64,000 nucleotides of DNA from Actinoplanes nipponensis (GTDB lineage Bacteria; Actinomycetota; Actinomycetes; Mycobacteriales; Micromonosporaceae): the NCBI RefSeq assembly GCF_016862275.1, contig NZ_BOMQ01000008.1, positions 372,001 through 436,000 on the forward strand, in the 5' to 3' direction. Positions 1-18,569 of this stretch are shown piece by piece. Below the pieces are notes generated by a model. That model was not told the origin of the DNA. It worked only from the letters and a program-made list of their open reading frames with translations, and ran no database searches. The number at the start of each line of letters is the position of its first letter. Position 1 is the stretch's first letter. The position numbers were made by a program, and so were the translations under genes.

Positions 1-3000
1 GCCGACGCGAACGCCTGGTCCAGCAACTGCTGGGCCAGGCGTTCGCCCGCCGGGCGGCCGATCCGGCGGTACGTGGCCAGCGCCTGCTCGGCGTGCCGGG
101 CCGCCTCGGCCGGCGTGGCGGCGCCGGTGAGCGCCGCCGCGGCCACCACCGTCAGGGCGTCGGCCTCGAGCAGGCCGAATCCCGTACGCCGGGTGACCTC
201 GAGCGCCTCCACCGCCTGCTCGTAGGCGTCGGTGTGCCGGCCGGCCGCGAGGTCGGCCTCGGCCAGCCCGATCAGCGCGGCCGCGACGCCCTTGCCATGT
301 CCCACCTCGCCGGCGAGGCGCAGCGCGTCGCGGTGCTGTGCCCCGGCGCCTTCCCGGTCGCCGAGGCTCAGCGCGATGCTGCCGAGCAGGTTGTGCGCGT
401 CGGCCTGGATCCGCTGATCGCCGACGTCGACGGCCACCTCGAGTCCCGACCGGGCCAGCCGCGCCGCGAGGGCGTGGTCGTGGGCGTCGCGGCTCGCCTC
501 ACCCATGTTGACCATTGTGTCCGCCTCGCCCTCGCGGCTGCCGGCTTCCCGGTGCAGGTCCAGGGCGCGGTCGAACTCCGCCCGGGCCGCGGCGATCCGG
601 CCGGCGCCGAGGTGGGCGTACCCGAGGCTGTTGTGCATCATCGCCCGGCCGTTGACGGAGCCGAGCTCGCGGTAGATGGCCATGCCCTCGGCGAGCCGGG
701 CGATCCCCTCGGCCAGCTCTCCCGACTCGATCAGCACGTTGCCGAGGTTGCCGAGGCTGACGGCCTCTCCGCCGCGCCCGCCGGTGTCCCGGTAGATCGC
801 CAGCGCCTGCCGGTGGTGCTCGGCGGCGTCGGCGAGCCGGCCCTGGTCGCGGTACAGGTTCGCGATGCTGCCGAGCGCAGCCGCCTCCCCCTGACGCCAA
901 CCGGCCCGTCCCGCGTCGACCCGGGCCCGGGCGAAGTGCTCAACGGCGGCGTCGTGCCGGGACAACGACCGGTACGCCTGGGCGAGCGACAGGTGCGCCG
1001 CGGCCCGGCCGTGCGGGTCACCGGCCGCCTCCGCGGCGGCCAGCCCGCCCGCGGCGGTCGTCAGCCAGTCCTCGGCGTACCGGCGGGTCCAGAAGTAGCC
1101 GCGCAGCGTGTCGGCCAGCAGCCAGCTGCAGCGGCGCAGCGCGTCGATCCCGGCCCCGTGGCGGACCAGCGCGACCATGGTCGACCGCTCGGCATCCAGC
1201 CAGGCCAGGGCCGCGGCCGCGCCGCTGAACGTCAGGCCCGCCCGCCCCCGCGCGAGTGGGGGCAGGCGCTGCATCTGCGGATAGAGCAGGGTCGCGGCGG
1301 CGCCGGCGGTACGCAGGTGGCACTCGTACAGGCGCAGCAGCGCGGACTCCCGCTCGGCGGCGGTGTCCTCGAGTTCGGCGAGCTCGGCGGCGTACAGGTG
1401 CAGCAGGTCGTGCCAGGCGTAGCGGCCGGGGGTGAGTTCCTCGATCAGGTGCGCGTCGGCCAGCTCGGACAGCAGCGTCCGCGTCGGGGCCGGGTCGAGG
1501 TCGGCGAGCGCGGCGGCCGCCGGCAGCGTCAGCTCGGCCATCGGCACCAGGCCGGCCAGCCGGAACAGCCGGGACGCCTTCGGCTTCAGCGCGGCGTACG
1601 AGAGGTCGAAGGCCGCGCGCACCGCGGACTGCTCGTCGCCCGGCACGGCCAGCATGGTGAGCCGGTTCCCGGCGCTGAGTTCCTCGACCAGGTCGGCGAC
1701 CGGGCGCCGGGGCCGGCACACCAGGTGCGCGGCGGCGATCCGCAGCGGCAACGGCAGCCGGCCGCACAGTCGCGCCAGTTCGGCGGTCGCCGCCGGGTCA
1801 TCCGTCGCGCGGGCGCCCACCAGCCCGTTGAGCAGCGCCTGGGCGCCCTCCGGGGTGAGCTCGCCGAGCGTCAGCGGGCGGGCGCCGTCCCGCGCGATCA
1901 GGCCGGCGAGCCGGTCGCGGCTGGTGACCAGCGTGACGCAGTGGGCGCCGCCGGGCAGCAGCGGGCGGATCGTGTCCACGCCGGCGGCGTTGTCGAGGAC
2001 CACCAGCAGCCGCCGGTCCGAGACGAGGGTGCGGTAGAGGGCGCCGGCCTCGACGAGGTCGACCGGCACCTGCTCGGCCGGTACGCCCAGAGCGCGCAGG
2101 AAGGTGGCGAGAGCCTGGGCCGGGTGGACCGGGCTGCCGTTGCTGTACCCGCCGAGGTTGAGGTAGAGCTGGCCGCCGGGGAAGCGGTCCCGCCGGCGCT
2201 GGCCCCACTGGACGGCGAGCGCCGTCTTGCCGGCGCCGGCCGTGCCGCCGATGGTGACGACGGCGGCGCCGGCGCCGTCGGCCAGCAGCGCGTCCAGCTC
2301 GGCGAGCTGATCGTCGCGGCCGGCGAAACCGGCGACCTGCGCGGGCAGTTGGGCGGGCGCGTCGGCGATCCGGGGCGGCTCCGGCAGCAGCAGGGCCGGA
2401 TCCTGCCGCATGATGGCCCGTTCCAGGCGCTGCAGCGGCAGGCCGGGGTCGATGCCCAGCTGGTCGGCGAGCACGTGCCGGGTGCCGCGCGCGACCGCGA
2501 GCGCGTCTGCGGCCCGCCCGCTGCGGTACAGCGCGAGCATGAGCTGAGCGGCCGGCCGCTCGCGGCGCGGCGCGGCGGCGACCAGACCGGTCAGCTCGTC
2601 GATCACCTCCCGATGGTGGCCCAGGCGCAGGCGGGCGTCGATCCGGTCCTCGACCGCGGTGAGCCGGGCCTCCGCAAGGCCCACCCCGAGGCGCTCGCAG
2701 ACCTCCGGTGCCGCCACACCCTGCAACGGCTCGCCGGCCCAGAGCTCCAGGGCGCGGTCGAGCAGCGCGATCCGGGCGCCGTCGTCGGCGGCCTCGCCGG
2801 CCTGGGTGAGCAGCACCCGGAAGCGGTGCACGTCGATCCGCATCGGATCGGCGGCGAGCAGGTAGCCGGTGCCCTGGGTACGGATCTCCACGCCGTCGTG
2901 GCCGGCCAGCACCCCGCGCAGCCCGGACACGCACACCTTGATCGCGTGGCCGGCGGTGCGCGGCGGCCCGACCGGCCAGGCGAGGTCGACCAGCCGGTCG

Positions 3001-3134
3001 ATCGGCACGGCCTTGTTGACCTCGAGGGCGAGGACCCCGAGCACCAGCCGCTGCTTGCGGGGGCCGAGCGCCAGCGGCGTCGCACCGGCATGCGCCTCCA
3101 CCGCCCCGAGCAGCCGTAACCGCAGGTCCGTCAC
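1..3134 (-). CDS. AfsR/SARP-type transcriptional regulator (winged helix-BTAD-NB-ARC-TPR), C-terminus cut by window edge
   Basis: One minus-strand frame stays open from a GTG at 3134 to base 1 (about 1,044 codons). It starts VTDLRLRLLGAVEAHAG, typical of the OmpR-like winged helix of SARPs. A BTAD all-helical region follows (about residues 100-245). Next comes an NB-ARC ATPase with P-loop GGTAGAGKTAL (about 298) and Walker B LLVVLDNA (about 377). TPR-like repeats with GNLGNV and GSIANLYRDQGRLA blocks start near residue 700. This is the large AfsR architecture, a DNA-binding activator of secondary metabolism. It lies 68 bp downstream of the phosphotransferase on the same strand, so it may be the cluster-situated activator. 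The true stop lies outside the window. Confidence 0.88.
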   Translation of the reverse strand, partial: MTDLRLRLLGAVEAHAGATPLALGPRKQRLVLGVLALEVNKAVPIDRLVDLAWPVGPPRTAGHAIKVCVSGLRGVLAGHDGVEIRTQGTGYLLAADPMRIDVHRFRVLLTQAGEAADDGARIALLDRALELWAGEPLQGVAAPEVCERLGVGLAEARLTAVEDRIDARLRLGHHREVIDELTGLVAAAPRRERPAAQLMLALYRSGRAADALAVARGTRHVLADQLGIDPGLPLQRLERAIMRQDPALLLPEPPRIADAPAQLPAQVAGFAGRDDQLAELDALLADGAGAAVVTIGGTAGAGKTALAVQWGQRRRDRFPGGQLYLNLGGYSNGSPVHPAQALATFLRALGVPAEQVPVDLVEAGALYRTLVSDRRLLVVLDNAAGVDTIRPLLPGGAHCVTLVTSRDRLAGLIARDGARPLTLGELTPEGAQALLNGLVGARATDDPAATAELARLCGRLPLPLRIAAAHLVCRPRRPVADLVEELSAGNRLTMLAVPGDEQSAVRAAFDLSYAALKPKASRLFRLAGLVPMAELTLPAAAALADLDPAPTRTLLSELADAHLIEELTPGRYAWHDLLHLYAAELAELEDTAAERESALLRLYECHLRTAGAAATLLYPQMQRLPPLARGRAGLTFSGAAAALAWLDAERSTMVALVRHGAGIDALRRCSWLLADTLRGYFWTRRYAEDWLTTAAGGLAAAEAAGDPHGRAAAHLSLAQAYRSLSRHDAAVEHFARARVDAGRAGWRQGEAAALGSIANLYRDQGRLADAAEHHRQALAIYRDTGGRGGEAVSLGNLGNVLIESGELAEGIARLAEGMAIYRELGSVNGRAMMHNSLGYAHLGAGRIAAARAEFDRALDLHREAGSREGEADTMVNMGEASRDAHDHALAARLARSGLEVAVDVGDQRIQADAHNLLGSIALSLGDREGAGAQHRDALRLAGEVGHGKGVAAALIGLAEADLAAGRHTDAYEQAVEALEVTRRTGFGLLEADALTVVAAAALTGAATPAEAARHAEQALATYRRIGRPAGERLAQQLLDQAFAS

Positions 3135-3202
3135 GGGCGGAATGGTAACGCCACGGATCGACTCCGACGGATGGTCGATCCGATACCCGATTCACGAACC
3201 GG

Positions 3203-4126
3203 TCAGCGCCACCCGGTGCGGCGGGCCAGCCAGGCCAGGGTCCGGCGCGCCGTCGCGGCCTGGAATCCGCGCAGCCGCGGCGACCGGTGCAGGTCGGGGC
3301 CGCGGCACTCGCGGGCGAAGCAGCCGGCGAGCGCGCACAGGAACGCGTCGACGGCCGGATCCGGGACGTCGCGGCCGAGCGGGTGGGTTCGCACGACCCG
3401 GTCGGCGTCCACCCCGTCGGCCGACGCGAGCAGCAGCACCAGGTCCACCCAGGGCGCACCGACGCAGGCGCGGGCCCAGTCCACCACGACCACCTCGCCC
3501 GCCGGGGTGAGCAGGATGTTGTCCGGGCGCAGATCGGCGTGCAGCAGGGTGTCGCCGGTGATCCCGGCGGCCCAGCCCGCCTCGAGACCGGCGAGCCGCT
3601 CGAGGTGCCGGCTCGACCAGGGGTCCAGATCGGCCGGCGGGCCGTCCGACGCGTACTGCCGCCAGCCGGTGGCCAGCGGGGCCAGGGTGTCCTCCACCGC
3701 GGGCAGGCCGGCGCCGGCTGCCGGGGTGAGCGCCGTCGCCAGCCGGTGCACCGTGGCGAGCACGGCGTCCCGCTCGGCCGGCACCCGCAGGTCCGGATGA
3801 CGCCCGTCGACGTCGTCGAAGGCCAGAACCACCCAGCCGCGGGCCTGCGCGGTGAACCGCAGCCGGGGCGTGGGCACCTCGGCGTCGAGGAGGGCGGCGT
3901 ACCGCGCCTCGTCCCGGTACGCCGTCACCGACTCGTCATCGGCCTGGATCCCTTTGAGGAACGCCCGCGACCCGTCGGCGAGCACCACCCGGGCGGCGAT
4001 GCCGGGGGTGAAGCCGCCGGCCTGCGCGGTGGCGGTGCGCACCGGCGCGCCGAGGCAGGTGTCGACCAGCTCCCGTACCTCGACCGGCAGCTGCGCCCAG
4101 GCCGGCCGCCACGCCGTGGCGATCAT
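3203..4126 (-). CDS. APH/choline-kinase-like phosphotransferase (paralogue 1)
   Basis: 307 aa in the aminoglycoside phosphotransferase (APH) fold. The catalytic loop HADLRPDN holds Asp198 and Asn203, and the metal-binding VVVDWARAC holds Asp216. The family transfers ATP phosphate to a small-molecule hydroxyl, often for resistance. Its ATG overlaps the HAD stop by four bases (ATGA), so it is the last gene of the NRPS-HAD-kinase operon. It shares WRQYASDGPPADLDPW, GDTLLHADLRPDN and a C-terminal WLARRTGWR almost word for word with the phosphotransferase at 14872-15816, so the two are paralogues within one cluster. Likely role: reversible phosphorylation of the product or an intermediate. The substrate is unknown. 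Confidence 0.85.
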   Translation of the reverse strand: MIATAWRPAWAQLPVEVRELVDTCLGAPVRTATAQAGGFTPGIAARVVLADGSRAFLKGIQADDESVTAYRDEARYAALLDAEVPTPRLRFTAQARGWVVLAFDDVDGRHPDLRVPAERDAVLATVHRLATALTPAAGAGLPAVEDTLAPLATGWRQYASDGPPADLDPWSSRHLERLAGLEAGWAAGITGDTLLHADLRPDNILLTPAGEVVVVDWARACVGAPWVDLVLLLASADGVDADRVVRTHPLGRDVPDPAVDAFLCALAGCFARECRGPDLHRSPRLRGFQAATARRTLAWLARRTGWR

Positions 4127-4929
4127 CGCGGTCCCGTGCCCTCATCGAGGAGGTGCTCCAGCACCAGAGCCACCCCGTCGTCGTCGTTGGTCGCGGTGAC
4201 GATGTCCGCGGCGGCCAGGACCGAGGGATGGGCGTTGGCGACGGCGACCGCCGTGCCCGCCCAGGTGAGCAGGGGCAGGTCGTTGGGCATGTCCCCGAAC
4301 GCCACGACGTCGGCGGCGGCGACACCCGAACGCCCGGCGATCCGGCGTACGGCGGCGGCCTTGGTCACGCCGGCACGGCCGATCTCGCAGAACGCCGTGG
4401 TGGACACGGTGGCCGTCAGCGAGGCCGGCAGGACCGCTGCGATCGCCGGCCAGTATTCCGGGGCGGCGCCGTCGAGCTGGGCGATGACCTTGCCGAAGCC
4501 GCGCCCGTCCACGACCCGGTCGAGGCGGGTCACCCGCTGCGCCCCTCGGCACCGGGTCGCCGCCAGCTCGAAGTCGTGCTCCAGCAGCAGGTCGAGCCCG
4601 CGTTCGGCGCCGAACCGGACCCGCGGGTGGGCCGTCCGCAGCGCCCGCAGCGTCGCCGCCAGGCCGGCCGCCGGGATGGGCTGCTCGTCGACGATCCGGT
4701 GCCGCCCGAAGTCGTACGTGATCGAGCCGTTGCCGCACACGGCGACCATCATCGCGTCGATCGCGACGGCGACGGCCCGGGTGTCGCGGACCGGGCGGGC
4801 GGTGCAGAGCAGCAGCGGCCACCCGGCCCGGCGGACCGCGCGCAATACGGCCCGGGAGCGCGGGCTGAGCCGTCCGGCCGAGGTGAGCAGGGTGCCGTCC
4901 AGGTCACAGACGACCATCCGGCGGGTCAT
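4123..4929 (-). CDS. HAD-superfamily (Cof-type) phosphatase
   Basis: 268 aa starting at ATG 4929, which overlaps the NRPS stop as ATGA. A longer upstream reading is only NRPS sequence in another frame. Motif I is VVCDLDGTLL (nucleophile and acid/base Asp). The C-terminal FGDMPNDLPLL gives the metal-binding Asp pair, and LLCTAR resembles motif II. The large cap inserted between motifs II and III is typical of Cof/type-IIB HADs that dephosphorylate sugar phosphates. NtdB, the kanosamine-6-phosphate phosphatase of the NtdABC route, is a HAD of this class paired with a DegT-type aminotransferase; the same pairing occurs here. A sugar-phosphate substrate is inference. Confidence 0.87.
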   Translation of the reverse strand: MTRRMVVCDLDGTLLTSAGRLSPRSRAVLRAVRRAGWPLLLCTARPVRDTRAVAVAIDAMMVAVCGNGSITYDFGRHRIVDEQPIPAAGLAATLRALRTAHPRVRFGAERGLDLLLEHDFELAATRCRGAQRVTRLDRVVDGRGFGKVIAQLDGAAPEYWPAIAAVLPASLTATVSTTAFCEIGRAGVTKAAAVRRIAGRSGVAAADVVAFGDMPNDLPLLTWAGTAVAVANAHPSVLAAADIVTATNDDDGVALVLEHLLDEGTGPR

Positions 4930-7900
4930 GGCGCCGACCGGGCGTGGAGCCGACCGCTCAGCGCGCGGATCGTCTGGCAGGCGAACAGGTCCTGCACGGT
5001 GACCTCGTGTCCCGGTAGCTTGCGGCGCAGGGTGGCCGCCACCCGCAGCAGTTGCAGGGAGTCGCCGCCGACCTCGAAGAAGCGGTCGTCGAGGCCGAAC
5101 CGGACGGTGCCGAGCACGTCCGCCCACGTGCCCGCGATCGTCGCGGTGACCTCGTCACCGGCCGGCAGCACGGCAGGCGGCTGGGTGCCGGTGGGCCCGG
5201 CACCCCGGGCCAGCTCCCGCAGCCGGGCGGTGTCGAGCTTGCCGTTGCGGGTCACCGGCAGGTCGCGGACCACGGCCCACAGCGACGGGACGGCGTAGCC
5301 CGGCAGCCGGTCGGCCGCGAACCGCCGCACCTCGGCGGCGAGCCCGGGGCGGTCCTCGGTGACCAGCCCGGCGAGCAGCCGCCGGTCCGCTTCGCCCGGG
5401 GTGGCCACCACGGCGACGTCCCGGACCGCCGGGTGCTCGCGCAGGACCCGGGCCACCGCCTCCAGCTCGATGCGGAACCCGCGGATCTTCACCTGCCGGT
5501 CGCGGCGGCCCAGGAAGCGCAGCCGCCCGGCGCCGTCCCACCGCACCAGGTCCCCGGTCCGGTACAGCCGCTCGTCGCCGTCCGCGGCGAACGCCCCGAA
5601 GGCGGCCGTGGTCTCGTCGGGGCGGCCGGCGTAGCCCAGAGCCAGCCCGGCGCCGCCGGTGTGGAGCTCGCCGATCCCGCCGGGCGGCACCGGGCGGCCG
5701 TGCTGGTCGAGCACGACCACGCCGGTGCCGGCGACCGGCCGGCCGATGGGGAGCGGATCGCTCACCTCGGCCGGGTCGTCCACCGCGTGGGTGGTGGTGA
5801 ACGTCGTGTTCTCCGTGGGGCCGTACCCGTTGGTGACGCGCAGCCCCGGACAGGCCGCCAGCACGTGGGCCACCTGGGCCGGCGGCACCACGTCGCCGCC
5901 GGTGAGCACCTGACGAAGTCCCGCGAACGCGTACGGCTGGTAGTCGGCGACCAGCCGGAAGAGTCCCGCGGTCAGCCACAGGCCGGTGGTGGCCCGCTCG
6001 GCGAGGAATCCGGCGAGCGCGGCCGGCGTCGGGTAGGCGTCGGGGAAGACGTCGACCAGGCCGCCGCCCAGCAGCGGGGCGAAGATCTCCAGGGTGGACG
6101 CGTCGAAGGCCAGGGGGGCCAGCCGCACGAACCGGTCGGTGGCGCCGGGTACGAGGAAGTCCGCGTCCCGGGTCAGCCGTACGACACCCCGGTGCGGGAT
6201 CCGGGTGCCCTTGGGGACCCCGGTCGAGCCGGACGTGAAGGCGACGTAGGCGACCCGCTCGGGGTCCGGCGCGGCCGCTGCCGGTATCTCGCCGCAGCGT
6301 ACGGCGTCCTGCCACGGGTCGACGATGCGCAGGTCCGCACGGTCGTCGTCGCCGAGCACGATCCGCACCCCGGCCGCCTCGAGCATGCCGGTGACCGCGG
6401 ACGCCGGCACGTCCGCCTCGATCCCGACGTAAGCGGCGCCCAGCCGGAGCACCCCGAGCACCGCGACGATCTCCCGCGCCGAGCGGCGGACGGCGAGCGC
6501 CACGCAGTCCCCGGCCCGTACGCCCGCCGCCGCGAGCTCGGCGGACTGCACCTGCGCGGCGTCCCGCAGCTGGGCGTAGGTCAGGGTGCGCGCCGGGTCG
6601 CCGTCGCGGATGGCGATCCGTTCCGGCCCGGCGGCCACCGCCGCCTCGAACAGCTCCCAGATGCCCCCGTACGGTGAGCCGCCCGGGCCGGCGCCGAGCC
6701 GGGCCAGCCGCTCGCGCTGGGCCGGCGTCATGGTCCGGATCTCCGCGAGCGGGCCGTCGGCGGCCATCTCCTCGAGCGTGGCGTTCAGCGCGCAGCCCAG
6801 TTCCGCCGCCTCGTCCGGCCGCAGGGCGTCGGTGGCGTACTCCAGCGCCAGCCGGGGCCGGTCCGCCCACCGCTGCACGTACAGGACGGCGTCGTAGACG
6901 GTGCCGCCGCAGTATCCCTCGTGCACGGTGGCGGTCAGGCCGCCGGTACGCAGATTCTCCGGGATCAGCTCGTCGTGCGCGGCGAACGCCACCTGCACCA
7001 GCGGGTGCCGCGTGTCGTCGCCACCGAGTTCGAGGGCGGCCACGATGTCCTCGAGCGGGACGTCGGTCGCCTCGAGAGCCGTCCGCAGTCCCGCCGCCGT
7101 GCGGCCGACGTGATCGGCCACCGTGCCGGTGTCGTCGATCCGGCACACCACCGGCACCATCGTCAGGCAGGGGCCGACGACGTCCAGGGTCGCGGCGGTC
7201 CGGGCGGCGGCCACCACGCCGAGCACGAACTCCGGCAGGGCCGTGCGCCGGGCGACGACGAGCGACCACGCCGCCAGCAGCACGGTGTTACGGGTGGTCC
7301 CGGAGCGGCGGGCCAGCGCCGTGCAGGCGTCGCGGGCCGCGTCGGAGAGCCCGAACAGCAGCCGGGTGCCGCTCCGGCTCGCGTGCGCCGGCCGCGGCGC
7401 GTCGGTCGGCAGCTCGACCCTGGTCGGTACGCCGGTCAGCGTGTCGGCTCGCAGCCGCGCGCGTTCGGAGACCGTGTCGCCACGCTCGGCGGCCACCACG
7501 GCGTCCATCGTCGGCGCCTCGGCGGTCAGGTCGGCGCCACCGAGGCCGGCGACGAGTTCCCGCAGCAGCAGGCCGACGCTCCACCCGTCGACGACGGCGT
7601 GATGCACGAGCAGCGACACCACCGTCCGCGACGGGCCGGCGGGACCGACCGCGAAGACCACGGGTGGGCGGCGGAAGGGGTCGAGCAGCCGGCCCGCGGC
7701 GCCGGCCAGGACGGCCTGGACCGCCGTCACCGCGTCGGCGCCGTCCGCCGGCGGCACGGGCAGGTCGAGGACCGTCGGCGTCCACCGCGCCAGCACGCGC
7801 CGGGCGGGACCGTTCGCTTCCTGCACGAAGACGGTCCGCAGCGCGGCGTGCCGGCCGGTCAGCGCGGCGAGCACGGCGTCGAGCCGGCCCCGGTCGACGC

Positions 7901-8255
7901 GCCCGCGCAGATCCAGGCTGAACAGCAGGTGGAACGGGGTGCCGCCGTGCAGTTGCTCGCCGACCAGCATCGCCTGCTGGACCCGGGACGGCGGCTGCAG
8001 GCCCCCGGCGGTGGCGACGGCCGGTGCGGCGGCGGCCGGTACCGCGGCGCCGAGCACCTGGGCGAGCGGCTCCGGGCCGAGCAGTGCGGGCACGGACACG
8101 GACACGCCGTACCGGAGCCCGATCCGGGCGGCGCACTCGATGGCCCGCAGTGAGGTGCCGCCCAGGCCGGTGAACGAGAGACGCCCGGCGTCGGCGGCGG
8201 TGAGCTCGCGGTCGAGTACTTCGGCGGCCACGGTCAGCGTGTCGATTCGGTCCAC
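4926..8255 (-). CDS. Nonribosomal peptide synthetase, T-C-A-T
   Basis: 1,109 aa from a GTG start. An N-terminal carrier domain has the phosphopantetheine serine in GLGGTSLRA (Ser35). A condensation domain (about 75-500) has the intact HHAVVDGW motif. An adenylation domain (about 535-1015) has AFTSGSTGVPKG, NGYGPTENTTF, YRTGDLVRW and NGKLD. The last carrier has FFEVGGDSLQLL. There is no A domain for the first carrier and no thioesterase. Reading the A-domain pocket by eye against GrsA gives about D-A-L-W-L-G-G-T-F-K, close to valine-type codes; treat as tentative. The protein could condense an acyl group loaded in trans on T1 with one amino acid on T2, then pass it to a separate acceptor. It heads an operon with the HAD and phosphotransferase genes. 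Confidence 0.93.
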   Translation of the reverse strand: MDRIDTLTVAAEVLDRELTAADAGRLSFTGLGGTSLRAIECAARIGLRYGVSVSVPALLGPEPLAQVLGAAVPAAAAPAVATAGGLQPPSRVQQAMLVGEQLHGGTPFHLLFSLDLRGRVDRGRLDAVLAALTGRHAALRTVFVQEANGPARRVLARWTPTVLDLPVPPADGADAVTAVQAVLAGAAGRLLDPFRRPPVVFAVGPAGPSRTVVSLLVHHAVVDGWSVGLLLRELVAGLGGADLTAEAPTMDAVVAAERGDTVSERARLRADTLTGVPTRVELPTDAPRPAHASRSGTRLLFGLSDAARDACTALARRSGTTRNTVLLAAWSLVVARRTALPEFVLGVVAAARTAATLDVVGPCLTMVPVVCRIDDTGTVADHVGRTAAGLRTALEATDVPLEDIVAALELGGDDTRHPLVQVAFAAHDELIPENLRTGGLTATVHEGYCGGTVYDAVLYVQRWADRPRLALEYATDALRPDEAAELGCALNATLEEMAADGPLAEIRTMTPAQRERLARLGAGPGGSPYGGIWELFEAAVAAGPERIAIRDGDPARTLTYAQLRDAAQVQSAELAAAGVRAGDCVALAVRRSAREIVAVLGVLRLGAAYVGIEADVPASAVTGMLEAAGVRIVLGDDDRADLRIVDPWQDAVRCGEIPAAAAPDPERVAYVAFTSGSTGVPKGTRIPHRGVVRLTRDADFLVPGATDRFVRLAPLAFDASTLEIFAPLLGGGLVDVFPDAYPTPAALAGFLAERATTGLWLTAGLFRLVADYQPYAFAGLRQVLTGGDVVPPAQVAHVLAACPGLRVTNGYGPTENTTFTTTHAVDDPAEVSDPLPIGRPVAGTGVVVLDQHGRPVPPGGIGELHTGGAGLALGYAGRPDETTAAFGAFAADGDERLYRTGDLVRWDGAGRLRFLGRRDRQVKIRGFRIELEAVARVLREHPAVRDVAVVATPGEADRRLLAGLVTEDRPGLAAEVRRFAADRLPGYAVPSLWAVVRDLPVTRNGKLDTARLRELARGAGPTGTQPPAVLPAGDEVTATIAGTWADVLGTVRFGLDDRFFEVGGDSLQLLRVAATLRRKLPGHEVTVQDLFACQTIRALSGRLHARSAP

Positions 8256-9131: not shown

Positions 9132-9228
9132 CCGCTATTCGTCGCCGTTCGCCGGCCGTCGCCTCGCGCGCTGGCCGAAGTTCGGCGCGCCCCCACCGTA
9201 CGCAGAATCAGAGCACGGGAGACCGATC

Positions 9229-10525: not shown

Positions 10526-11472
10526 CCCGAGACGCAGTCCTGATCACCGGCGGCGGAGGCCGCCTCGGCAGTGCGCTGGCGCGCCGGCTCGCCGCCGCCG
10601 GCCACGCCGTGACGGCGGTGGACCTGAGCTTCCCGAGCTGGCTCGACGACCCCGCGCTGCCGGTGCGCTGCGTCCAGGCGGACGTGCTCTCGGCCGGCGG
10701 CGGGTACGAGCTGCACCGCGCGATCGCGGACTGCGGCGTCGTCGTGCACCTGGCCGGCCTGCACGGCCTGCACCTGCGACAGGGCGCCAGCGTCGCGGAC
10801 CTCTGGCGGTCCAATGTGGAGAGCGCGCGCCGGGTCACCGCGGCGGCGGTCGAGGCGGACGTACGCCGCATGGTGCTGGCCAGCACCACGGCGGTGTACG
10901 GCCCCGGAAGCGCGCCCGGTGAGCCGGCGGCGATCCTCGACGAGGCGCGCGCGCCGCAGCCCGACAACCCGTACGCCACCGCCAAGCTCGCCGCCGAGTC
11001 GGTGATGGCGACCGCCGCCGGGGCGGGCATCGAGGTCGTCTCCCTGCGCCTGGGGCGGTTCTTCCGCGAGGACGAGCAGTCCTACCAGATCCGCAAGCTC
11101 TCCACCGGCCTGGACCTGGAGGACGCCATCGACGCGATGGAGGCCGTCTGCGTGGCGGAGCAGGTGGCGAGCGGCGTCTACTGCGTCGCCAGCGACCTGC
11201 CGCTGAGCCGCGCCGACCGGTACGCCCTGGGCGAGAACTGTCACGCGATCCTCGAGAGCCACCTGCCGGGCTTCGTCGCCGCGGCGGCGCTGCGGGACTG
11301 GCAGCTGCCGGCCCAGGTCGGGCGGTCCGTGGATTCCAGCAAGCTCCAGACGGCCGTCGGCTACCGGCCGCGGCGTTCCCTGGCCCGTACCGCCGAACGC
11401 TGGCGGGCCGAGGCCTCGCGGCGGCGCCAGCCGCCCCAGCGCACCACGATGAGAGAAGAGGTAACTCCATGA
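10522..11472 (+). CDS. NAD(P)-dependent sugar epimerase/dehydratase (extended SDR)
   Basis: 316 aa. The Rossmann glycine motif is VLITGGGGRLGSALA. The active site has STTAVYG and the YATAK (YxxxK) pair, as in GalE-like extended SDRs. These enzymes oxidise a sugar carbon with bound NAD to epimerise, dehydrate or hand over a ketone. Its ATG overlaps the PHP stop (ATGA) and its stop overlaps the aminotransferase ATG. It is thus placed to make the keto-sugar that the following DegT enzyme aminates. Whether the substrate is nucleotide-bound or a free phosphate is not visible. Confidence 0.87.
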   Translation: MTRDAVLITGGGGRLGSALARRLAAAGHAVTAVDLSFPSWLDDPALPVRCVQADVLSAGGGYELHRAIADCGVVVHLAGLHGLHLRQGASVADLWRSNVESARRVTAAAVEADVRRMVLASTTAVYGPGSAPGEPAAILDEARAPQPDNPYATAKLAAESVMATAAGAGIEVVSLRLGRFFREDEQSYQIRKLSTGLDLEDAIDAMEAVCVAEQVASGVYCVASDLPLSRADRYALGENCHAILESHLPGFVAAAALRDWQLPAQVGRSVDSSKLQTAVGYRPRRSLARTAERWRAEASRRRQPPQRTTMREEVTP

Positions 11473-12758
11473 CAGCAAGCGGGACCACCACGGGCGGCGC
11501 GCTCGCCCTCGACGGCGGGACGCCGGTCATCGAGCCGGCGCACCGGTTCCAATGGCCCAGGATCTCCGACGACGAGCGGGCCGCGGTGACGGCCCTGCTG
11601 GAGCGGGGCGAGCTCTCCTACTACGGCCGGGAGGGGGTGCTCACGGAGCTGGAGGAGTTCTGGTCGGGGCGGCTGTCCGGCCGGCGCACGCTCGGGCTCA
11701 GCTCCGGTACGGCGGCGCTGCACTCGGCGTACTTCGCCCTGGGCGCCGGGCCGGGCGACGAGGTGCTGTGCCCGACCAACACCTTCCTCGCCACCGTGAT
11801 GCCGCTGGTGCAGCTGGGCGCCGTTCCGGTGTTGTGCGACGCCGAGGCGGACACCGGCAACATCGACCCCGCCGCCATCGCCGCGGCGATCACCCCGCGG
11901 ACCGTCGGCATCACCGTCACCCACCTGTGGGGTCACCCCTGCGAGATGGACGCGATCCTGCAGATCGCCCGCCGGCACGGCCTGTGGGTCGTGGAGGACT
12001 GCTCCCACGCCCACGGCGCGTCGTACCACGGCCGCGAGGTCGGCACGCTCGGCGACGCCGCCGCGTTCAGCTTCCAGGCCGCGAAGATCGTCTATGCCGG
12101 CCAGGGCGGCCTGCTGGCGTCCCGGGAGACGGAGGTCCACGAGCGCGCCTGCCTGCTCGGTCACTTCCGGGTCCGCTCCGAGCAGGATGTCGCCGGCCCG
12201 CTGAAGCGGTACGCCAGCACCGGCTTCGGGCTGAACTACCGGATGCACCCGTTCGCGGCCGGGCTGGCGCTGCAGAGTTCCCGCGTGATGGACCAGCGGA
12301 TCGCCGCTCGCGCCGAGCTGCTGGGCCGGCTCGCCGACGGGCTGGCCACCATCCCCGGGCTCGTCCCGCCGGTCACCCGGGAGGGCTGCGACCGCGGCGC
12401 GTACTACGGCTTCAAGCTCCGGCTGACCGGGCCGTGGCTGGCGGCCGGCGCGGACCTGGTCGCCCGGGCACTGGGTGCGGAGGGTCTCGACGTCCACCCG
12501 CCGGGCTCGCGCCCGCTGCACCTGCTGCCCTTCTTCGCCGACGGGGCGGTCCCGGTGCGCCGTAACGCCTCGCCGCAGCAGTACCCGGCCTACAAGGAAG
12601 GCGACTTCCCGGTGGCCGAGGAGGTGTGGCGGACCTCGCTGAGCCTGCCGACCTTCACGTTCGCCGACGAGGCGGGCCTGGTCGACCGCTACTGCGAGGC
12701 GTTCGAGAAGGTCGCCGGGCAGCTACCCGCGCTGACCGAGCGGGGGGTACGGCAGTGA
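11469..12758 (+). CDS. DegT/DnrJ/EryC1-family PLP aminotransferase
   Basis: 429 aa. Family marks are LSSGTAALHSAYFALGAGPGDEV, the PLP-contacting VVEDCSHAHGA, and FSFQAAKIVYAGQGG with the Schiff-base lysine near residue 205. Members aminate keto-sugars or make AHBA-type precursors using glutamate or glutamine. ATG 11469 has GAAGAGG upstream and overlaps the epimerase stop. Together with the epimerase and the two phosphatases it implies an amino-sugar or aminocyclitol-like part in the product. That is inference from context. Confidence 0.9.
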   Translation: MTASGTTTGGALALDGGTPVIEPAHRFQWPRISDDERAAVTALLERGELSYYGREGVLTELEEFWSGRLSGRRTLGLSSGTAALHSAYFALGAGPGDEVLCPTNTFLATVMPLVQLGAVPVLCDAEADTGNIDPAAIAAAITPRTVGITVTHLWGHPCEMDAILQIARRHGLWVVEDCSHAHGASYHGREVGTLGDAAAFSFQAAKIVYAGQGGLLASRETEVHERACLLGHFRVRSEQDVAGPLKRYASTGFGLNYRMHPFAAGLALQSSRVMDQRIAARAELLGRLADGLATIPGLVPPVTREGCDRGAYYGFKLRLTGPWLAAGADLVARALGAEGLDVHPPGSRPLHLLPFFADGAVPVRRNASPQQYPAYKEGDFPVAEEVWRTSLSLPTFTFADEAGLVDRYCEAFEKVAGQLPALTERGVRQ

Positions 12759-13567
12759 CGGGCCAGGCCGCCGGGCCGGTGCCCACCGACCTGCTGATCT
12801 GCTCGTGGGGGATCGACGCGGCCCAACTCGCCGCGGCGCTGCGGCCGTGGACCGGCGCCGCCCGGTTGTTCCTGGCCGGGATGCTCGCCGACGATCTGGG
12901 CGGCAGCTCGGGACCACTGGAGATCGTCGCCGTGACCGAGCGCCCCGGGGAGGTGGCTCAGCATTCGTTCGAGCTGGGCAGCATCACGGGGTGCCCGGTC
13001 ACCGCGGCGGTCACCGTCCTACCGCTGGACACCGTCCGGTCCTGGTCGGTGCCGCTGGTACGGCTGCTCACCGGCCCGGTGGTCCTGCCGCCGGAGATGC
13101 CGCGTCCGGTGGCCGTCGGCTTCCACGCGCTGTACAGCCACCGCAACCTCCTACCCGGCGACCGCTACCTCGACGCCGAACTGGAACAGGCGCACGCCGA
13201 GGTGCTGCCGCTGTACGTCGCCGCCGGGGAGACGCGCCGCCTGCGCCATGACGCCGACCTGGCCGGACGCCCGGCCGCGCGGCTGCCCGTGCTGCTCCGG
13301 GCGCTGCTCGGGGCCTGGGGATACTGCAACCCCTCCCCGGGGACGCTGGTCCCGCTGTTCGAACGGGCGGCCCGGCGGCAACGGCTGGCGCCGGAACTGT
13401 CGGCCACGGTCCGCCGCGCGATGGCGGTCGACGAAGGCGGCGCCGACGTGCCCGCCGCGGTGGCGCACCTCGAGAAGTTGTGCGCAGCCGACGCGGTGCT
13501 GCAATTCTGCGACAGCCTCGTCGGGCGCGCGGCCACCGGTGCCGACGCGGTCAGCGTGGGCGGTTGA
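12755..13567 (+). CDS. Uncharacterised cluster protein
   Basis: 270 aa from GTG 12755, whose GTGA overlaps the aminotransferase stop. I do not recognise a family. The segment around residues 30-60 (ARLFLAGMLADDLGG, then PLEIVAVTE) has the spacing of a nucleotidyltransferase GS-x-DxD region but lacks the paired acidic residues, so such a relationship would be degenerate. The rest is mainly helical by composition, with no signal peptide or membrane segment. As last gene of the core operon, 4 bp-coupled, it is probably required for the pathway. Function unknown. Confidence 0.7.
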   Translation: MTGQAAGPVPTDLLICSWGIDAAQLAAALRPWTGAARLFLAGMLADDLGGSSGPLEIVAVTERPGEVAQHSFELGSITGCPVTAAVTVLPLDTVRSWSVPLVRLLTGPVVLPPEMPRPVAVGFHALYSHRNLLPGDRYLDAELEQAHAEVLPLYVAAGETRRLRHDADLAGRPAARLPVLLRALLGAWGYCNPSPGTLVPLFERAARRQRLAPELSATVRRAMAVDEGGADVPAAVAHLEKLCAADAVLQFCDSLVGRAATGADAVSVGG

Positions 13568-13608: not shown

Positions 13609-13618
13609 CGTCGCCAGG

Positions 13619-14875
13619 TCAACCGAGCTCGGCGGTCAAGGGGACGGTGGTCTGCGGCTCGCGGCCACCCACGGCGAGCCACCAGCAGGCGAAGCCGGTC
13701 AGCAGGAAGAGCCCGGCCAGCACCAGCCAGCCGATCGCCCCGGCGCCGACCACCAGCGTCGTGACCAGGGCCGGACCGAGGAACTGGGCGATGCCCCGCC
13801 CCAGCCCGAAGACGGCCTGGTACTCGCCCTGCCGGCCGGGTGGGGGCAGCTCGAAGGCCAGGCCCCACCCCCCGCCGGCCTGCCAGATCTCGCCCACCGA
13901 GAGGATCACCGTGCCGGCGACCAGAGCGGTCGTCCCCGCCGCGGTGCCCAGCCCGCTGCTGATCGCGCAGACGACACAGCCGGCGGCGAGGACGAGCCCG
14001 GCCCGGCGCTCCAGCGCGGCGGCCCCGGCCACCGACCCGGCGCCGCGGGTCAGCCGGACCTGCAGCAACACGACGATCACCGTGTTGACGACGATGAAGA
14101 GGGACACCAGGCTGGCCGGCGCCGCGTGGCGGCTGATGATCCACAGGGGGAGCCCCAGGGTGAGCACCGTCGAATGCAGCTCCAGCACCCCGTTGGCCAT
14201 CGTGAGCAGGACGAAGCGGGTGTCCCGCAGGGCGTGGCCGAGCGGCGCCCCGCCGCTCCGGGGTCCGTTGTGGTCCTGCGGCACCGTCGAGGGCCGCAGG
14301 CGCCACACGGCGACACCGCAAGCCGCCTGCGCCAGGGCGTTGGTCAAACACACCGCCCAGAACGTGGCATGGCTCGGTGCGGCGAGGACCACCGCCGCCA
14401 GTCCGGCGCCCAGGAGGAAGCCGATGTTGAAGCCGCTGCGCATCTGGGCCCGCGTCCTGACGGCCTCGGCCGCCGGCAGCAGCGAGTGCAGGGTCGCCGA
14501 CCGCAGCGGACTGGCCGAGATCTCCGCCATGGCGATGAGGCTCGCGAGCACCACGAAGGACGGGAAGCCGCCGGCGAGCGGGTAGAGCGCGAACAGCAGG
14601 GCCAGCACCAGATGGTTCACCGCCAGCAGCCGGCGGGCGCCGTGCCGGTCGGCCAGGCGGCCGATCGGCACGGTCACCAGGAAACCGGCCAGCCCGGCCA
14701 GGGACAGGCCGAGCCCGAGCTGCCCGGGCTCGAGCCCGACGACCCGGACGAAGAAGACGGCGCTGGAGGTCAGGAACAGGCCGCTGCCGCCGGACTGGAC
14801 CACGGTCACCAGCACCATGCGCCGGCCCGGACCGGCCGCGGGCACCAGGTCCAGCGACCGCAGCGCGGCCCTCAT
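13619..14875 (-). CDS. MFS transporter, likely product exporter
   Basis: 418 aa with about twelve hydrophobic segments and the MFS loop motif VPIGRLADRHGARRLLAV after the second helix. ATG 14875 overlaps the phosphotransferase stop as ATGA. The apparently longer upstream frame is phosphotransferase DNA read out of frame. Lying third in an operon with an MccF-like protein and a kinase, it most likely exports the product or a phosphorylated form. The substrate cannot be read from sequence. Confidence 0.87.
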   Translation of the reverse strand: MRAALRSLDLVPAAGPGRRMVLVTVVQSGGSGLFLTSSAVFFVRVVGLEPGQLGLGLSLAGLAGFLVTVPIGRLADRHGARRLLAVNHLVLALLFALYPLAGGFPSFVVLASLIAMAEISASPLRSATLHSLLPAAEAVRTRAQMRSGFNIGFLLGAGLAAVVLAAPSHATFWAVCLTNALAQAACGVAVWRLRPSTVPQDHNGPRSGGAPLGHALRDTRFVLLTMANGVLELHSTVLTLGLPLWIISRHAAPASLVSLFIVVNTVIVVLLQVRLTRGAGSVAGAAALERRAGLVLAAGCVVCAISSGLGTAAGTTALVAGTVILSVGEIWQAGGGWGLAFELPPPGRQGEYQAVFGLGRGIAQFLGPALVTTLVVGAGAIGWLVLAGLFLLTGFACWWLAVGGREPQTTVPLTAELG

Positions 14876-15816
14876 CGCCAGCCCGTCCGGCGCGCGAGCC
14901 AGCTCAGGGTGAGTTCGCCGTTGCGGGCCTGGAACCGTCGCAGGTACGGCGAGCGCGGCAGCTGGGGCTTGCGGCTCTCCCGCGCCCACAGGCCGGCAAG
15001 GGCGCACAGGAACGCGTCGATCGCCGCGGCGGGCACGTCGCGGGTGACCGGGTGGGAGCGCACGATGGCCTCGCCGTCGAGGCCGTCCACCGAGCCCAGC
15101 AGCACCAGCAGGTCGACCCAGGCGGCGCCGACGCAGGCGCAGGCCCAGTCCACGGTGAGCACCTCGCCGGTGGTGGTCAGCAGCATGTTGTCCGGCCGGA
15201 GGTCGAAGTGCAGCAGGGTGTCGCCCGCCGTCGCGCTCACCCAGTGGCTCTCCAGCTCCACCAGGCGGTCGAGGTTGCGCCGGGCCCACGGGTCGAGGTC
15301 GGCGGGTGGGCCGTCGGTGGCGTACTGACGCCACACGTCCACCAGCGGGCGCAGCTCCGCCTCGCAGGTGGGCGCCTCCGGCAGGGGGTTCGGGGTCAGC
15401 ACCTCGGCGAGCCGCTCGAAGGCGGCCAGCACCGCGGCCAGCTCGCCCGGCTCGGACAGGTCCGGATTGCGTCCCTCGACGTCGGCGAACACGAGCACCA
15501 CCCAGCCCTCCTGCTCCAGGCTGAACTGCAGCCGGGAGGCCGGTACGGCGGCCGGCAGGCGAGCCGCGCACCAGGCCTCGGCCCGGTAGGCGGCGGCGAG
15601 CCCGTCGTCGGCGGGCATCGCCTTGGCGAACACGCGTCCGCCGTCACCGAGCGTCAGCCGCGCCGCCAGCCCGTGGGTGAACCCGCCGGTCTGGTCGACG
15701 GCGGCCACGGTGGGCGCGCCGAGGCGGGACTCGAGGGTGGCGAGCAGACCCGGCGGCAGCGCCGTCGTCCAGCTGGGGCGTACCGCGGTCGCCTCGGGCA
15801 CGGTGGTCTCCGTCAT
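14872..15816 (-). CDS. APH-like phosphotransferase (paralogue 2)
   Basis: 314 aa with catalytic HFDLRPDNMLL and metal site TVDWACACVG. It is clearly paralogous to the protein at 3203-4126: both share WRQYATDGPPADLDPW-type and LARRTGWR blocks. ATG 15816 overlaps the MccF-like stop, and its own stop overlaps the MFS start. A much longer frame running upstream to 18630 is not supported, because it crosses other well-supported genes. The placement between a hydrolase and an exporter argues for self-protection by phosphorylation. Confidence 0.87.
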   Translation of the reverse strand: MTETTVPEATAVRPSWTTALPPGLLATLESRLGAPTVAAVDQTGGFTHGLAARLTLGDGGRVFAKAMPADDGLAAAYRAEAWCAARLPAAVPASRLQFSLEQEGWVVLVFADVEGRNPDLSEPGELAAVLAAFERLAEVLTPNPLPEAPTCEAELRPLVDVWRQYATDGPPADLDPWARRNLDRLVELESHWVSATAGDTLLHFDLRPDNMLLTTTGEVLTVDWACACVGAAWVDLLVLLGSVDGLDGEAIVRSHPVTRDVPAAAIDAFLCALAGLWARESRKPQLPRSPYLRRFQARNGELTLSWLARRTGWR

Positions 15817-16877
15817 TCCTTCGTTCCTTCCGAGAGAGGGTGAACCGCCGCCCGGGTGCGCGCCCCGCGGCGAGGGAAGACGATCCGGTCGGCGGCCACC
15901 TCGACCTCCTCGCCGTACGGGACGATCCACGACGGACAGGTGTGGCCGAGGTCGGTGTTGACGACGATCGGGTAGCCGACGTCGGGCAGGAACCGGTCGA
16001 CGAGCCCGCCGACGATCCCGGCCCACTGCGGCAGGGGCATGAGCGGGTGGGCGCCGATCAGCATGCCGGCGAGGCCGGTGAGGTCGACGCGCTCGCACAG
16101 CGCCTCGAAGAGCGGCCCCACGGGCATCCCGTGGTAGGAGATGTCCCAGAACAGCACCGCCCCGTGGAGATCCAGGCCGAAGTCCGTCACCAGGTCGGGC
16201 AGGACGGAGACCTCGCCGCCCCAGAGCGGTCCGCGGGCGGTGCCCGGGCGCAGCCAGGTCCACCCGCCGGCGATGTTCCGGCCGCGGGGCTCGCGTTCCC
16301 GCTCGGGGACGTACCAGTCGATCAGCGCTCCGGTCCGGTCGGACATCGCCTCGCAGACCAGCGGCTCGTCGCTGGCCAGCGCCTGCGCGAGGTAGCGGAG
16401 CGTCTCCGGGTACGCCCCGCCCGCCTCGCCGATGTGCACCATGTGGGAGATGCCGTACAGCGAACTGATCCCGGCGCGGCGGGCGAGGAACGCGTTGAGA
16501 TACACGTTGTCGCAGTAGCCGACGAACGGCTTGGGGGTGGCGGCGATCGCGTCGGCGTCGAGGAACTCGATCAGCTCCTGGCTGCCCTGCCCGGCGTCGG
16601 AGGCGAACACCACGTCGACCGACGGGTCGGCGAACGCGGCCATGAAGTCCGCCGCCCGCTGCTCGGGTGTTCCGGCGGTCATCCCGTCGGGGGACACCTG
16701 GAACGCGTTCGCGCCGTAGCTGACGGTGTAGCCGTGGTCGCGGAGCACCTGCTCCGCCCGGCGGGCTCGCTCGGGGATGTACGAGATGGTGGGCATCGCC
16801 GGGCTGACCAGCCTGATGTGTGCGCCCGGCCGCACCGGCGCCACCGGGCGGACGGGGCTGGATACGGTGAACTCCAT
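15813..16877 (-). CDS. S66-family MccF/LD-carboxypeptidase-like protein with altered active site
   Basis: 354 aa matching the S66 layout: an N-terminal RLVSPAMP strand, MTAGTPEQRAADFMAAFADPSVDVV, then GYCDN (residues 120-124) where the family has GYSD with the nucleophile serine. LFWD (Asp245) stands where the catalytic Glu is usual. LGHTCPSW (His312) keeps the histidine. MccF cleaves the aminoacyl amide of microcin C and gives immunity, while LdcA trims peptidoglycan. As first gene of an operon with a kinase and an MFS pump, an immunity role is likely. With Cys122 in place of Ser it may be a thiol hydrolase, or a non-catalytic binder. Confidence 0.8.
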   Translation of the reverse strand: MEFTVSSPVRPVAPVRPGAHIRLVSPAMPTISYIPERARRAEQVLRDHGYTVSYGANAFQVSPDGMTAGTPEQRAADFMAAFADPSVDVVFASDAGQGSQELIEFLDADAIAATPKPFVGYCDNVYLNAFLARRAGISSLYGISHMVHIGEAGGAYPETLRYLAQALASDEPLVCEAMSDRTGALIDWYVPEREREPRGRNIAGGWTWLRPGTARGPLWGGEVSVLPDLVTDFGLDLHGAVLFWDISYHGMPVGPLFEALCERVDLTGLAGMLIGAHPLMPLPQWAGIVGGLVDRFLPDVGYPIVVNTDLGHTCPSWIVPYGEEVEVAADRIVFPRRGARTRAAVHPLSEGTKE

Positions 16878-16986
16878 CGGTCTCCAGTCGTAATGGGGTG
16901 GGTCGGCCGCTCATCGCGCGCGAACGGCACGTGTCACGCCGGCCATGCTCCCGGCGCGCCCGGGCGCGGGCCAGGAACCGCGGAGA

Positions 16987-17002
16987 GGCCGAAAGTGCGC
17001 CC
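16987..17002. promoter_or_regulatory. Shared 16-bp element in the divergent mccF-like/SDR spacer
   Basis: GGCCGAAAGTGCGCCC matches 8305-8320 at 14 of 16 bases, in the same orientation. It lies in the 238-bp divergent spacer 16878-17115, about 110 bp from each start codon. It is a candidate binding site for a cluster regulator. Confidence 0.45.
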
Positions 17003-17115
17003 CGGCTGAGCCGCACCAACGGGTACTTGTTCCGGCCACCGCCGGGCCGGTAGGCATGGCGGTGCGGTCGGTCACGCCGGCGCAACCACGACCCGGGACC
17101 GGAGGCACGACTGCC

Positions 17116-17835
17116 ATGGACGTCGACACGACGGGCACCGACGACGCGCCCGTGGCGCTGGTGACGGGGGCCAACCGCGGCACCGGCCTGGCGATCGCGG
17201 CGGAACTGCACCGGCGCGGCTACCGGGTCGGTGCGCTGCACCGGACGCTCACGGGAACCAGCTGGCTGCACGAGTTCCCGTGCGACCTCACGGCGCCCGA
17301 TTCGATCGACCAGGCGGTGGCGGCCGCCCTGGACCGCTTCGGCCGTCTCGACGCCTGCGTGGCCAACGCGGCCGTCCGCCGGCTCGCGCCGGTGAGCCGG
17401 CTGGAACCGGCGGACTGGGACGAGTCCGTGGCGGTCAACCTCACGGCGGTCTTCCGGCTGGTCCGGGCGACGCTGCCGGCGATACGCGCGAGCGGTGGCA
17501 GCTACGTGGTGATCGGCAGCCACGCCGGCACCCACTACTTCGAGGGCGGGGCCGCGTACAGCGCCACCAAGGCAGCGCTCAAGGCGCTGGTCGAGACGTT
17601 GTTGCTGGAGGAGCGGCCGAACGGGGTGCGCAGCACGCTGCTCAACCCCGGCGCGATCGCCAACCGGTACGGCCAGGGCACCCCCCTGAAGATGGCCACC
17701 GAGTCGGTCGCGCACTGGGTCGGCGCCCTGATCCAGGACCAGCCCGCGGACGTGGCGGTCGGGGAGATCGAACTGCGTCCGGCGCGGCTCGCCGACCCGC
17801 TCCGGGCGGGAATCGCCCGGCTGCAGCACGTCTAG
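17116..17835 (+). CDS. Short-chain dehydrogenase/reductase
   Basis: 239 aa from ATG 17116, preceded by GGAGG. The cofactor motif is LVTGANRGTGLA. NAAVRR resembles NNAG, the active site has VIGSHAG, and the catalytic pair is YSATK. Classical SDRs reduce or oxidise carbonyl/hydroxyl groups with NAD(P). It is divergent from the self-protection operon, and its stop shares a CTAG with the converging LuxR stop. Probably a tailoring step or a cofactor-dependent sugar oxidation in the cluster; the substrate is unknown. Confidence 0.85.
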   Translation: MDVDTTGTDDAPVALVTGANRGTGLAIAAELHRRGYRVGALHRTLTGTSWLHEFPCDLTAPDSIDQAVAAALDRFGRLDACVANAAVRRLAPVSRLEPADWDESVAVNLTAVFRLVRATLPAIRASGGSYVVIGSHAGTHYFEGGAAYSATKAALKALVETLLLEERPNGVRSTLLNPGAIANRYGQGTPLKMATESVAHWVGALIQDQPADVAVGEIELRPARLADPLRAGIARLQHV

Positions 17836-18569
17836 GACCGCTGCGGTGTCACCGCCAGCAGCGCGACCTCCGTACGGTTCGAGCAGTCGAACTTGATCAG
17901 CAGGTTCGACACGTGCCGCTTGACGGCATGGCTCGAGATGCCCAGGCTGCGGGCGATCTGCTGATTGCTGCGGCCGCGCGCGACCAGCGCCATGACGGTC
18001 TGCTCGCGGGCGGTGAGCCGGCCGGCCAGGTGGCTGCCGGCCGGCTCCGCCGGGGTGGCCGCCGGACCGCCCTGCTCGTGCTGGCGGAGCAGGGCACAGC
18101 GGATCGCCGCCGGCATGGAGCCGGCGATCGCCCGGCGCAGCACCTCGTGCGCGAACACCAGGTCGCCGCCGTCGGAGGAGCGCAGCAGGCCGGCGTCGAA
18201 CGCCTCCTGCCAGGCCGGCAGGAGGACGGCGGCCGGCCGCTCGACCATCTCCGCGATCCGGTCCAGATCGAGGGACGGCCCCAGCACCGCCGCGACGCAC
18301 AGCAGCTGGCGGCAGCCGGGTTCGCGGGCGGCGAGGATCTCGCGGGCCAGGTCCACCACGCGCTCCGGCAGGCGATCGGGGTCGTCGCCGTGCAGCACGG
18401 CCAGCCCGTCGTCGACGCGGACCCGGCCCTCCTCCACCAGGCCGTCGACCAGGGCCCGGGTCCACCGCTGATCGCCGCCCGCCCCGGCGATCACCTCCAG
18501 CAGGCCGGTGGCGGGCGGCGCACCGAAGGCCGTGGCGCAGAGCCGAAGAACCGCATCGAGATCGCTCAT
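17832..18569 (-). CDS. LuxR-type transcriptional regulator
   Basis: 245 aa. The C-terminal LuxR helix-turn-helix is LTAREQTVMALVARG, then SNQQIARSLGISSHAVKRHV. The N-terminal 170 residues are helical and look like the C-terminal part of the LAL/MalT ATPase effector region, without a P-loop. It is therefore a short derivative of a large LuxR regulator. It converges on the SDR with a four-base stop overlap. The divergent spacer ahead of it carries the 11-bp repeats at 18644-18687, which may control this gene. Confidence 0.85.
   Translation of the reverse strand: MSDLDAVLRLCATAFGAPPATGLLEVIAGAGGDQRWTRALVDGLVEEGRVRVDDGLAVLHGDDPDRLPERVVDLAREILAAREPGCRQLLCVAAVLGPSLDLDRIAEMVERPAAVLLPAWQEAFDAGLLRSSDGGDLVFAHEVLRRAIAGSMPAAIRCALLRQHEQGGPAATPAEPAGSHLAGRLTAREQTVMALVARGRSNQQIARSLGISSHAVKRHVSNLLIKFDCSNRTEVALLAVTPQRS

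Follow-up and report, generated by a model that had tools for sequence, protein, structure and literature searches.

A putative nucleoside-antibiotic gene cluster of Actinoplanes nipponensis, composed of three modules that also occur apart

In the available extracts of the literature, the SAICAR synthetase gene is called the core gene of adechlorin clusters and is described as common to the pentostatin, coformycin and pyrazomycin clusters. The pentostatin proteins PenA, PenB and PenC are given there as a HisG-like protein, a short-chain dehydrogenase/reductase (SDR) and a homologue of SAICAR synthetase whose function is unclear, respectively, and the ring-expanding steps were, according to a review excerpt, worked out in vitro. 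For puromycin, the excerpts place the biosynthetic steps in the order Pur10, Pur4, Pur7, Pur3 and Pur6, and they report no detection of classical amino-acid activation, e.g. a stand-alone adenylation domain, in puromycin-like clusters. Here, a cluster of approximately 18.6 kb was characterised in a stretch of 64,000 nucleotides from Actinoplanes nipponensis (GCF_016862275.1, contig NZ_BOMQ01000008.1, positions 372,001–436,000 of the forward strand; hereafter the window), which belongs to a genome of 8.95 Mb. CofB is said, in work published in PNAS in 2020, to expand the ring of a histidine-pathway intermediate, and CofA to reduce the product.

Gene families were assigned to the open reading frames (ORFs) of the window using Pfam and NCBIfam profiles, and each gene listed in an earlier note on this DNA was found, by profile and motif, in the family named for it. 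The cluster is a composite of three modules that are also found apart: a coformycin-type core, consisting of a SAICAR synthetase homologue (PurC-like), an SDR and a Cof-type HAD phosphatase; a module of a non-ribosomal peptide synthetase (NRPS), an S66 peptidase, APH-family kinases and a LuxR-family regulator; and a five-gene cassette encoding a MazG-like protein, a PHP-family protein, an epimerase-family protein, a DegT aminotransferase and Unk270, a rare orphan of 270 amino acids. The NRPS-S66-APH-LuxR module is common to the window, to Paractinoplanes rishiriensis, where it accompanies the coformycin core, and to a genome designated G722, and the cassette recurs in a genome of another family, G360. 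The module halves have so far been seen together solely in the window's cluster. Since the modules occur apart in P. rishiriensis, G360 and G722, the idea in the earlier note that one gene set makes one product finds no support, while its statement that no cluster with this gene set has been described agrees with a literature search (MIBiG not covered).

The PurC-like gene (8439..9131, plus strand; PF01259, SAICAR_synt), whose likely start at 8439 matches that of the relative P0004, encodes a protein that scores 38 bits with the PurC equivalog profile, whose cut-off is 190; coformycin-type ring expansion is its proposed role. The housekeeping purC of the same genome is located elsewhere and reads DELLTPDSSRF where the PurC-like protein has SEVSPDCMRL; this motif region formed part of the search pattern for related loci. 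Three of the 67 genomes of the genus carry the PurC-like gene. The protein search gave 249 matches among 8000 scored candidates, and among the best 120 of the 249, which were listed, the named relatives include Nocardia interforma, Streptomyces citricolor, S. kaniharaensis, S. calvus and Micromonospora haikouensis, with P. rishiriensis the nearest at 85% identity.

A scan of species genomes yielded 44 PurC-like loci, or 45 with locus L058 from genome G062. A match to the window SDR was found at all 45, immediately downstream and codirectional in 41; at L054 there is a 100-base overlap between the match and the PurC-like gene, and at L019, L021 and L058 the best match is not beside that gene. 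The Cof-HAD matched at 31 of the 45, and neither SDR nor HAD matched in six other actinobacterial stretches of 9–20 kb each (L005, L006, L056 and L057 at E 1e-5; L061 and L066 at E 1e-3). In a tree of 46 PurC-like rows, the window pairs with P. rishiriensis (support 100/97), and this pair adjoins a clade of 21 rows including M. haikouensis and S. resistomycificus (92/90), so placed that the protein falls in the CofB/PenC clade, which is associated with the 1,3-diazepine ring found in coformycin and pentostatin. The SDR of the window is of the CofA/PenB type (17116..17835, plus strand; 17116 is the likely start, and an upstream start at 16945 is also open). When the M. haikouensis SDR was compared with the window's genome, this protein was the best match at 224 bits, the next of 42 matches reaching 59. 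The HAD phosphatase (4123..4917, minus strand) is 76% identical to that of P. rishiriensis and is a candidate for dephosphorylating a coformycin-type nucleotide. It had previously been taken for an NtdB-like partner of DegT; its matches instead go with the coformycin core, none of the five cassette genes, DegT included, matched at E 1e-8 in the stretches read around the 44 named PurC-like loci, and the window HAD had no match at E 1e-3 in the 20 kb read around the G360 cassette.

No HisG gene is present in the window cluster, the only one found genome-wide lying on another contig. HisG-like genes were found near 13 of 44 PurC-like loci, the ade loci among them, and not near those of P. rishiriensis, M. 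haikouensis or S. resistomycificus. Taken together, the first arm of the cluster very probably makes a coformycin-type nucleoside. Several points weigh against this: the branch that unites the window with the coformycin clade is well supported (92/90) yet unstarred, the window SDR lies 8 kb from the PurC-like gene and does not adjoin it, the window HAD is just 33% identical to that of M. haikouensis, and two loci within the clade of 21 rows (L043 and L045) do have a nearby HisG-like gene.

Two further observations were made on such loci. PurC-like and SDR pairs were found in Roseospira, Fodinibius and several Flavobacteriaceae (L047–L053), and coformycin-type chemistry may therefore reach beyond the actinobacteria. 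Streptomyces calvus, named in the available literature as the nucleocidin species, has a locus (L022) with PurC-like, SDR and HisG-like genes.

The NRPS (4926..8255, minus strand) has a condensation, an adenylation and a thiolation domain by Pfam, and its N-terminal thiolation domain was recognised by the site LGGTSL; the resulting T-C-A-T order is the same in the window, P. rishiriensis (69% identity) and G722 (56%). The adenylation-domain segments FDASTLEIF, LWLTAGLF, LTGGD and NGYGPTENTTF are identical across the three proteins, which therefore, judging from sequence, probably use the same amino acid. In P. rishiriensis, the NRPS, S66, HAD, APH, MFS and AfsR genes are ordered on one strand, the PurC-like and SDR genes are adjacent on the opposite strand and a LuxR gene is also present. 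The cassette is absent from that cluster, which additionally contains a GMC oxidoreductase, a luciferase-like oxidoreductase and a weak GFO/IDH/MocA match. The G722 locus (L066, G722:C24:17001-37000) shares with the window the S66 (60% identity), APH (61–63%) and LuxR (53%) proteins in addition to the NRPS, and also carries an FAD protein, a Nudix protein and a HAD protein; no match to the PurC-like gene, SDR, window HAD or cassette was found in the 20 kb read (E 1e-3). This locus, with its NRPS, S66, FAD, Nudix and HAD genes beside APH and LuxR, is perhaps another peptidyl-nucleoside cluster. At E 1e-60, the S66 protein was found in G722 alone among 341 genomes of the family of G360, and a class-wide search of 394 genomes gave only that of the window.

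The S66 gene (15813..16877, minus strand) encodes a protein whose MccF-clade fold was confirmed, which bears out the MccF relationship proposed earlier. The MccF-type catalysis that had been taken for granted with it does not follow, as the triad is Cys122-Asp245-His312 in place of the Ser-Glu-His of MccF. Among sampled close members, Ser is replaced by Cys in 38 of 40 and Glu by Asp or His in 40 of 40. The subfamily (P0130–P0193) shows Cys-Asp-His or Cys-His-His in nearly all sampled rows and includes a few named actinobacteria. This substitution pattern also bears on a second function, in which the protein would not confer immunity and would instead be the release enzyme of an NRPS lacking a thioesterase, the aminoacyl group passing from the thioester to Cys122 and on to a nucleoside amine. 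No thioesterase was found in the NRPS by the Pfam domain scan, and the S66 gene directly follows the NRPS gene in both P. rishiriensis and G722. In the window, however, it shares a separate operon with an APH kinase and a pump, a position in which resistance genes are usually found. The Ser is retained in two of the sampled close members, and amide cleavage would agree equally well with the loop Trp and with a fold of the MccF clade; a release role is possible but doubtful.

The cassette lies between the PurC-like and MFS genes on the plus strand and consists of the MazG-like gene (9118..9600), a proposed nucleoside triphosphate (NTP) pyrophosphohydrolase; the HisJ-like PHP gene (9584..10525), a proposed phosphatase; the extended SDR or NAD-dependent epimerase-family gene (10522..11472), a proposed sugar-hydroxyl dehydrogenase; the DegT/DnrJ/EryC1/StrS aminotransferase gene (11469..12758); and Unk270 (12755..13567). 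The MazG-like protein scores 15.8 bits in Pfam against a cut-off of 22 and has the motif ExxE...ExxD. All five genes stand in identical order in G360 (L061, G360:C14:1-20000), with identities of 64, 74, 64, 78 and 44%, respectively. Among the 394 class genomes searched at E 1e-90 or better, DegT turned up only in that of the window and in G360; at E 1e-110, only G360 itself gave it among 297 genomes of its family. The G360 cassette has as same-strand neighbours an MTAP-like phosphorylase (302 bits, cut-off 306), a LuxR protein, a fructosamine-kinase/APH protein and, at the operon end, a GFO/IDH/MocA oxidoreductase. No PurC-like gene was found in the G360 genome, an empty result that alone shows little; the query, in a longer form, did match in three genomes of the genus. 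ABC transporters and, a few kb off on the opposite strand, a glycosyltransferase were also observed at the G360 locus.

Because the order of the cassette is kept in G360 beside an MTAP-like phosphorylase and without PurC, it suggests, by analogy, a puromycin-like aminonucleoside route, and we give the making of an aminonucleoside by this second arm about an even chance. A nucleotide-like core and amination by the DegT protein, both anticipated in the earlier note, are supported.

Unk270 has six homologues including itself in the protein search and was found in one of 200 genomes of the family. Its low-confidence model resembles a nucleotidyltransferase (ANT) domain with an AadA/HEPN-like helical domain, and the expected catalytic DxD site, placed by eye, reads P-x-E in all six aligned sequences. 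In Actinoplanes sp. NPDC049681, the contigs given for an Unk270 protein and for an S66 protein have the same length, 503570 bases, which hints at a second composite.

From this gene content we infer a composite cluster for nucleoside antibiotics on the protector–protégé model, possibly yielding two nucleoside drugs that form a self-protecting pair. In the first arm, the CofB-like protein, SDR and HAD would turn the cell's own histidine-pathway intermediate into a coformycin-type inhibitor of adenosine deaminase. In the second, the epimerase-family dehydrogenase and DegT would oxidise and then aminate the sugar of an adenine nucleotide, accompanied by Unk270, after which the MazG-like protein would remove pyrophosphate and the PHP protein the last phosphate, giving an aminodeoxyadenosine-like nucleoside. 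This would follow puromycin logic (Pur10, Pur4, Pur7, Pur3), at least partly via other enzyme families. In the third, the NRPS would attach an amino acid or dipeptide to an amine of such a nucleoside, and the Cys-type MccF relative would cleave or transfer the amide so formed; protection of the producer would fall to both APH kinases, the S66 protein and the MFS pump. For the overall picture of two linked nucleoside products, we lean slightly towards acceptance. That the NRPS acylates the product of the second arm is put more tentatively, somewhat short of even, as a close DegT relative is absent genome-wide from P. rishiriensis and G722 (best-scoring matches 33 and 37% identical). The NRPS therefore does not always need a DegT-made amine, and the substrate common to NRPS and S66 may be something else. 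It also weighs against the picture of two products that Unk270 is without an assigned role, that the epimerase family usually acts on nucleotide sugars, and that we know of no product for the clusters of the window, P. rishiriensis, G360 or G722.

The cluster might instead make a single product, a coformycin-type nucleoside that is aminated on its sugar and aminoacylated, i.e. a Trojan-horse peptidyl-amino-coformycin unloaded by the MccF relative. All genes do lie within one cluster, and P. rishiriensis pairs the coformycin core with NRPS and S66 without the DegT cassette, which makes the coformycin-type molecule, or a relative, a possible substrate of the NRPS. Yet the cassette stands in G360, and the NRPS and S66 in G722, without the core (within the limits given above for both searches), and both therefore seem to act on something else there; moreover, the coformycin and pentostatin clusters are reported, in the available extracts, to pair two separate products. 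We regard a single product as improbable.

An amino sugar or nucleoside diphosphate (NDP)-amino sugar could also be the product of the cassette, given the usual substrates of the epimerase family, with the nucleoside and sugar arms meeting in a glycosylated or mixed product. Epimerases and DegT proteins are characteristic of NDP-sugar pathways, the closest relatives of solved structure are MoeE5 for the epimerase and perosamine synthetase for DegT, and G360 has the glycosyltransferase and the GFO/IDH/MocA oxidoreductase mentioned above. Such a product is nevertheless unlikely, as the ORFs scanned in the cluster include neither a glycosyltransferase nor a sugar-phosphate nucleotidylyltransferase, and the MazG-type and PHP proteins, together with the MTAP-like phosphorylase of G360, point to nucleotides.

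That the PurC-like protein is an ATP-dependent ligase placing an amino acid on a phosphorylation-protected aminated sugar, as the earlier note had it, is very improbable: PF01259 does include true amide-forming ligases, a review excerpt continues to propose for PenC a step that forms an amide or C-N bond, and a SAICAR synthetase takes part in amidation in pyrazofurin synthesis, but the protein sits inside the CofB/PenC clade in the tree, is constantly paired with the SDR, and is missing beside the G360 cassette.

The remaining genes were regulators, kinases and a transporter. On the minus strand, an AfsR/SARP-type regulator with BTAD, NB-ARC and TPR domains (1..3134; 71% identity in P. rishiriensis) extends past the window, with 1045 amino acids and its stop a few bases left of base 1, and has next to it APH kinase 1 (3203..4126; 71% P. 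rishiriensis, 61% G722), which may serve self-resistance or biosynthetic phosphorylation. The MFS transporter (13619..14875; approximately 57% P. rishiriensis), APH kinase 2 (14872..15816; 63% G722, 60% P. rishiriensis) and the LuxR-family regulator (17832..18569; 63% P. rishiriensis) are also on the minus strand, and both APH genes match the P. rishiriensis APH. Family motifs were found in both kinases (HxDxxxxN), HAD, PHP, MazG, DegT (SFxxxK), both SDRs and the condensation domain (HHAVVDG). Of ten codirectional junctions, six are 4-base overlaps, while of the other four two overlap (14 and 17 bases) and two are separated by 8 and 68 bases; the description of nearly all genes as ATGA-coupled was therefore somewhat too strong. 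The cluster is flanked on the left by small unassigned ORFs and an M4 peptidase, and on the right by unassigned ORFs, a TPR protein and then glycoside hydrolases.

The locus thus presents a known coformycin-type core with new partners, one cluster joining adenosine deaminase inhibition with what would be an aminonucleoside strategy and adding an NRPS. The five-gene cassette (seen in two families), the Cys-type S66 subfamily and the NRPS-S66-APH module, which recurs with different neighbours, offer handles for mining new nucleoside antibiotics. A more specific scheme, in which the NRPS loads an amino acid, the Cys-type MccF relative moves it onto the amino group of the MazG/PHP-made aminonucleoside and the coformycin-type inhibitor shields the product from deamination, is quite improbable as a whole chain; if true, it would be a new chemical logic for peptidyl nucleosides, and the Cys-type S66 subfamily would comprise aminoacyl transferases derived from an immunity peptidase.

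Among known systems, the coformycin cluster (mac, M. haikouensis, L031) resembles the window in its CofB/PenC-type homologue, CofA/PenB-type SDR and Cof-HAD match, and the loci of M. haikouensis and S. resistomycificus likewise have no HisG-like gene nearby. They differ in the second product arm, in that the SDR does not adjoin the PurC-like gene in the window, and in that L031 and L038 have no match to the window NRPS, S66 or APH. The pentostatin (pen) and adechlorin/2'-amino-2'-deoxyadenosine (ade) clusters share the PurC-like and SDR core, and the ade cluster, according to the available extract, also makes an amino nucleoside beside a pentostatin-type product. Unlike the window, both have HisG-like genes (PenA/AdeC), and none of the five cassette genes matched at E 1e-8 in L018 and L028, from genera and species named in the adechlorin extract, or in the sister row L030. 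The puromycin, A201A and cystocin pathways, as far as the extracts describe them, resemble the window in the proposed step order of dehydrogenase, aminotransferase, NTP to nucleoside monophosphate hydrolase, phosphatase and aminoacyl attachment. The parallel with Pur10, Pur4, Pur7 and Pur3 is one of expected function; the window has a MazG-like protein in place of the Nudix enzyme Pur7 and an NRPS in place of Pur6, and no unassigned protein of Pur6 size (84 kDa) was seen among the cluster ORFs, judged by size with no Pur6 sequence search. Compared with MccF of microcin C, also an S66 protein, the window protein is set in an NRPS cluster, and its subfamily carries Cys-Asp-His or Cys-His-His where MccF has Ser-Glu-His.

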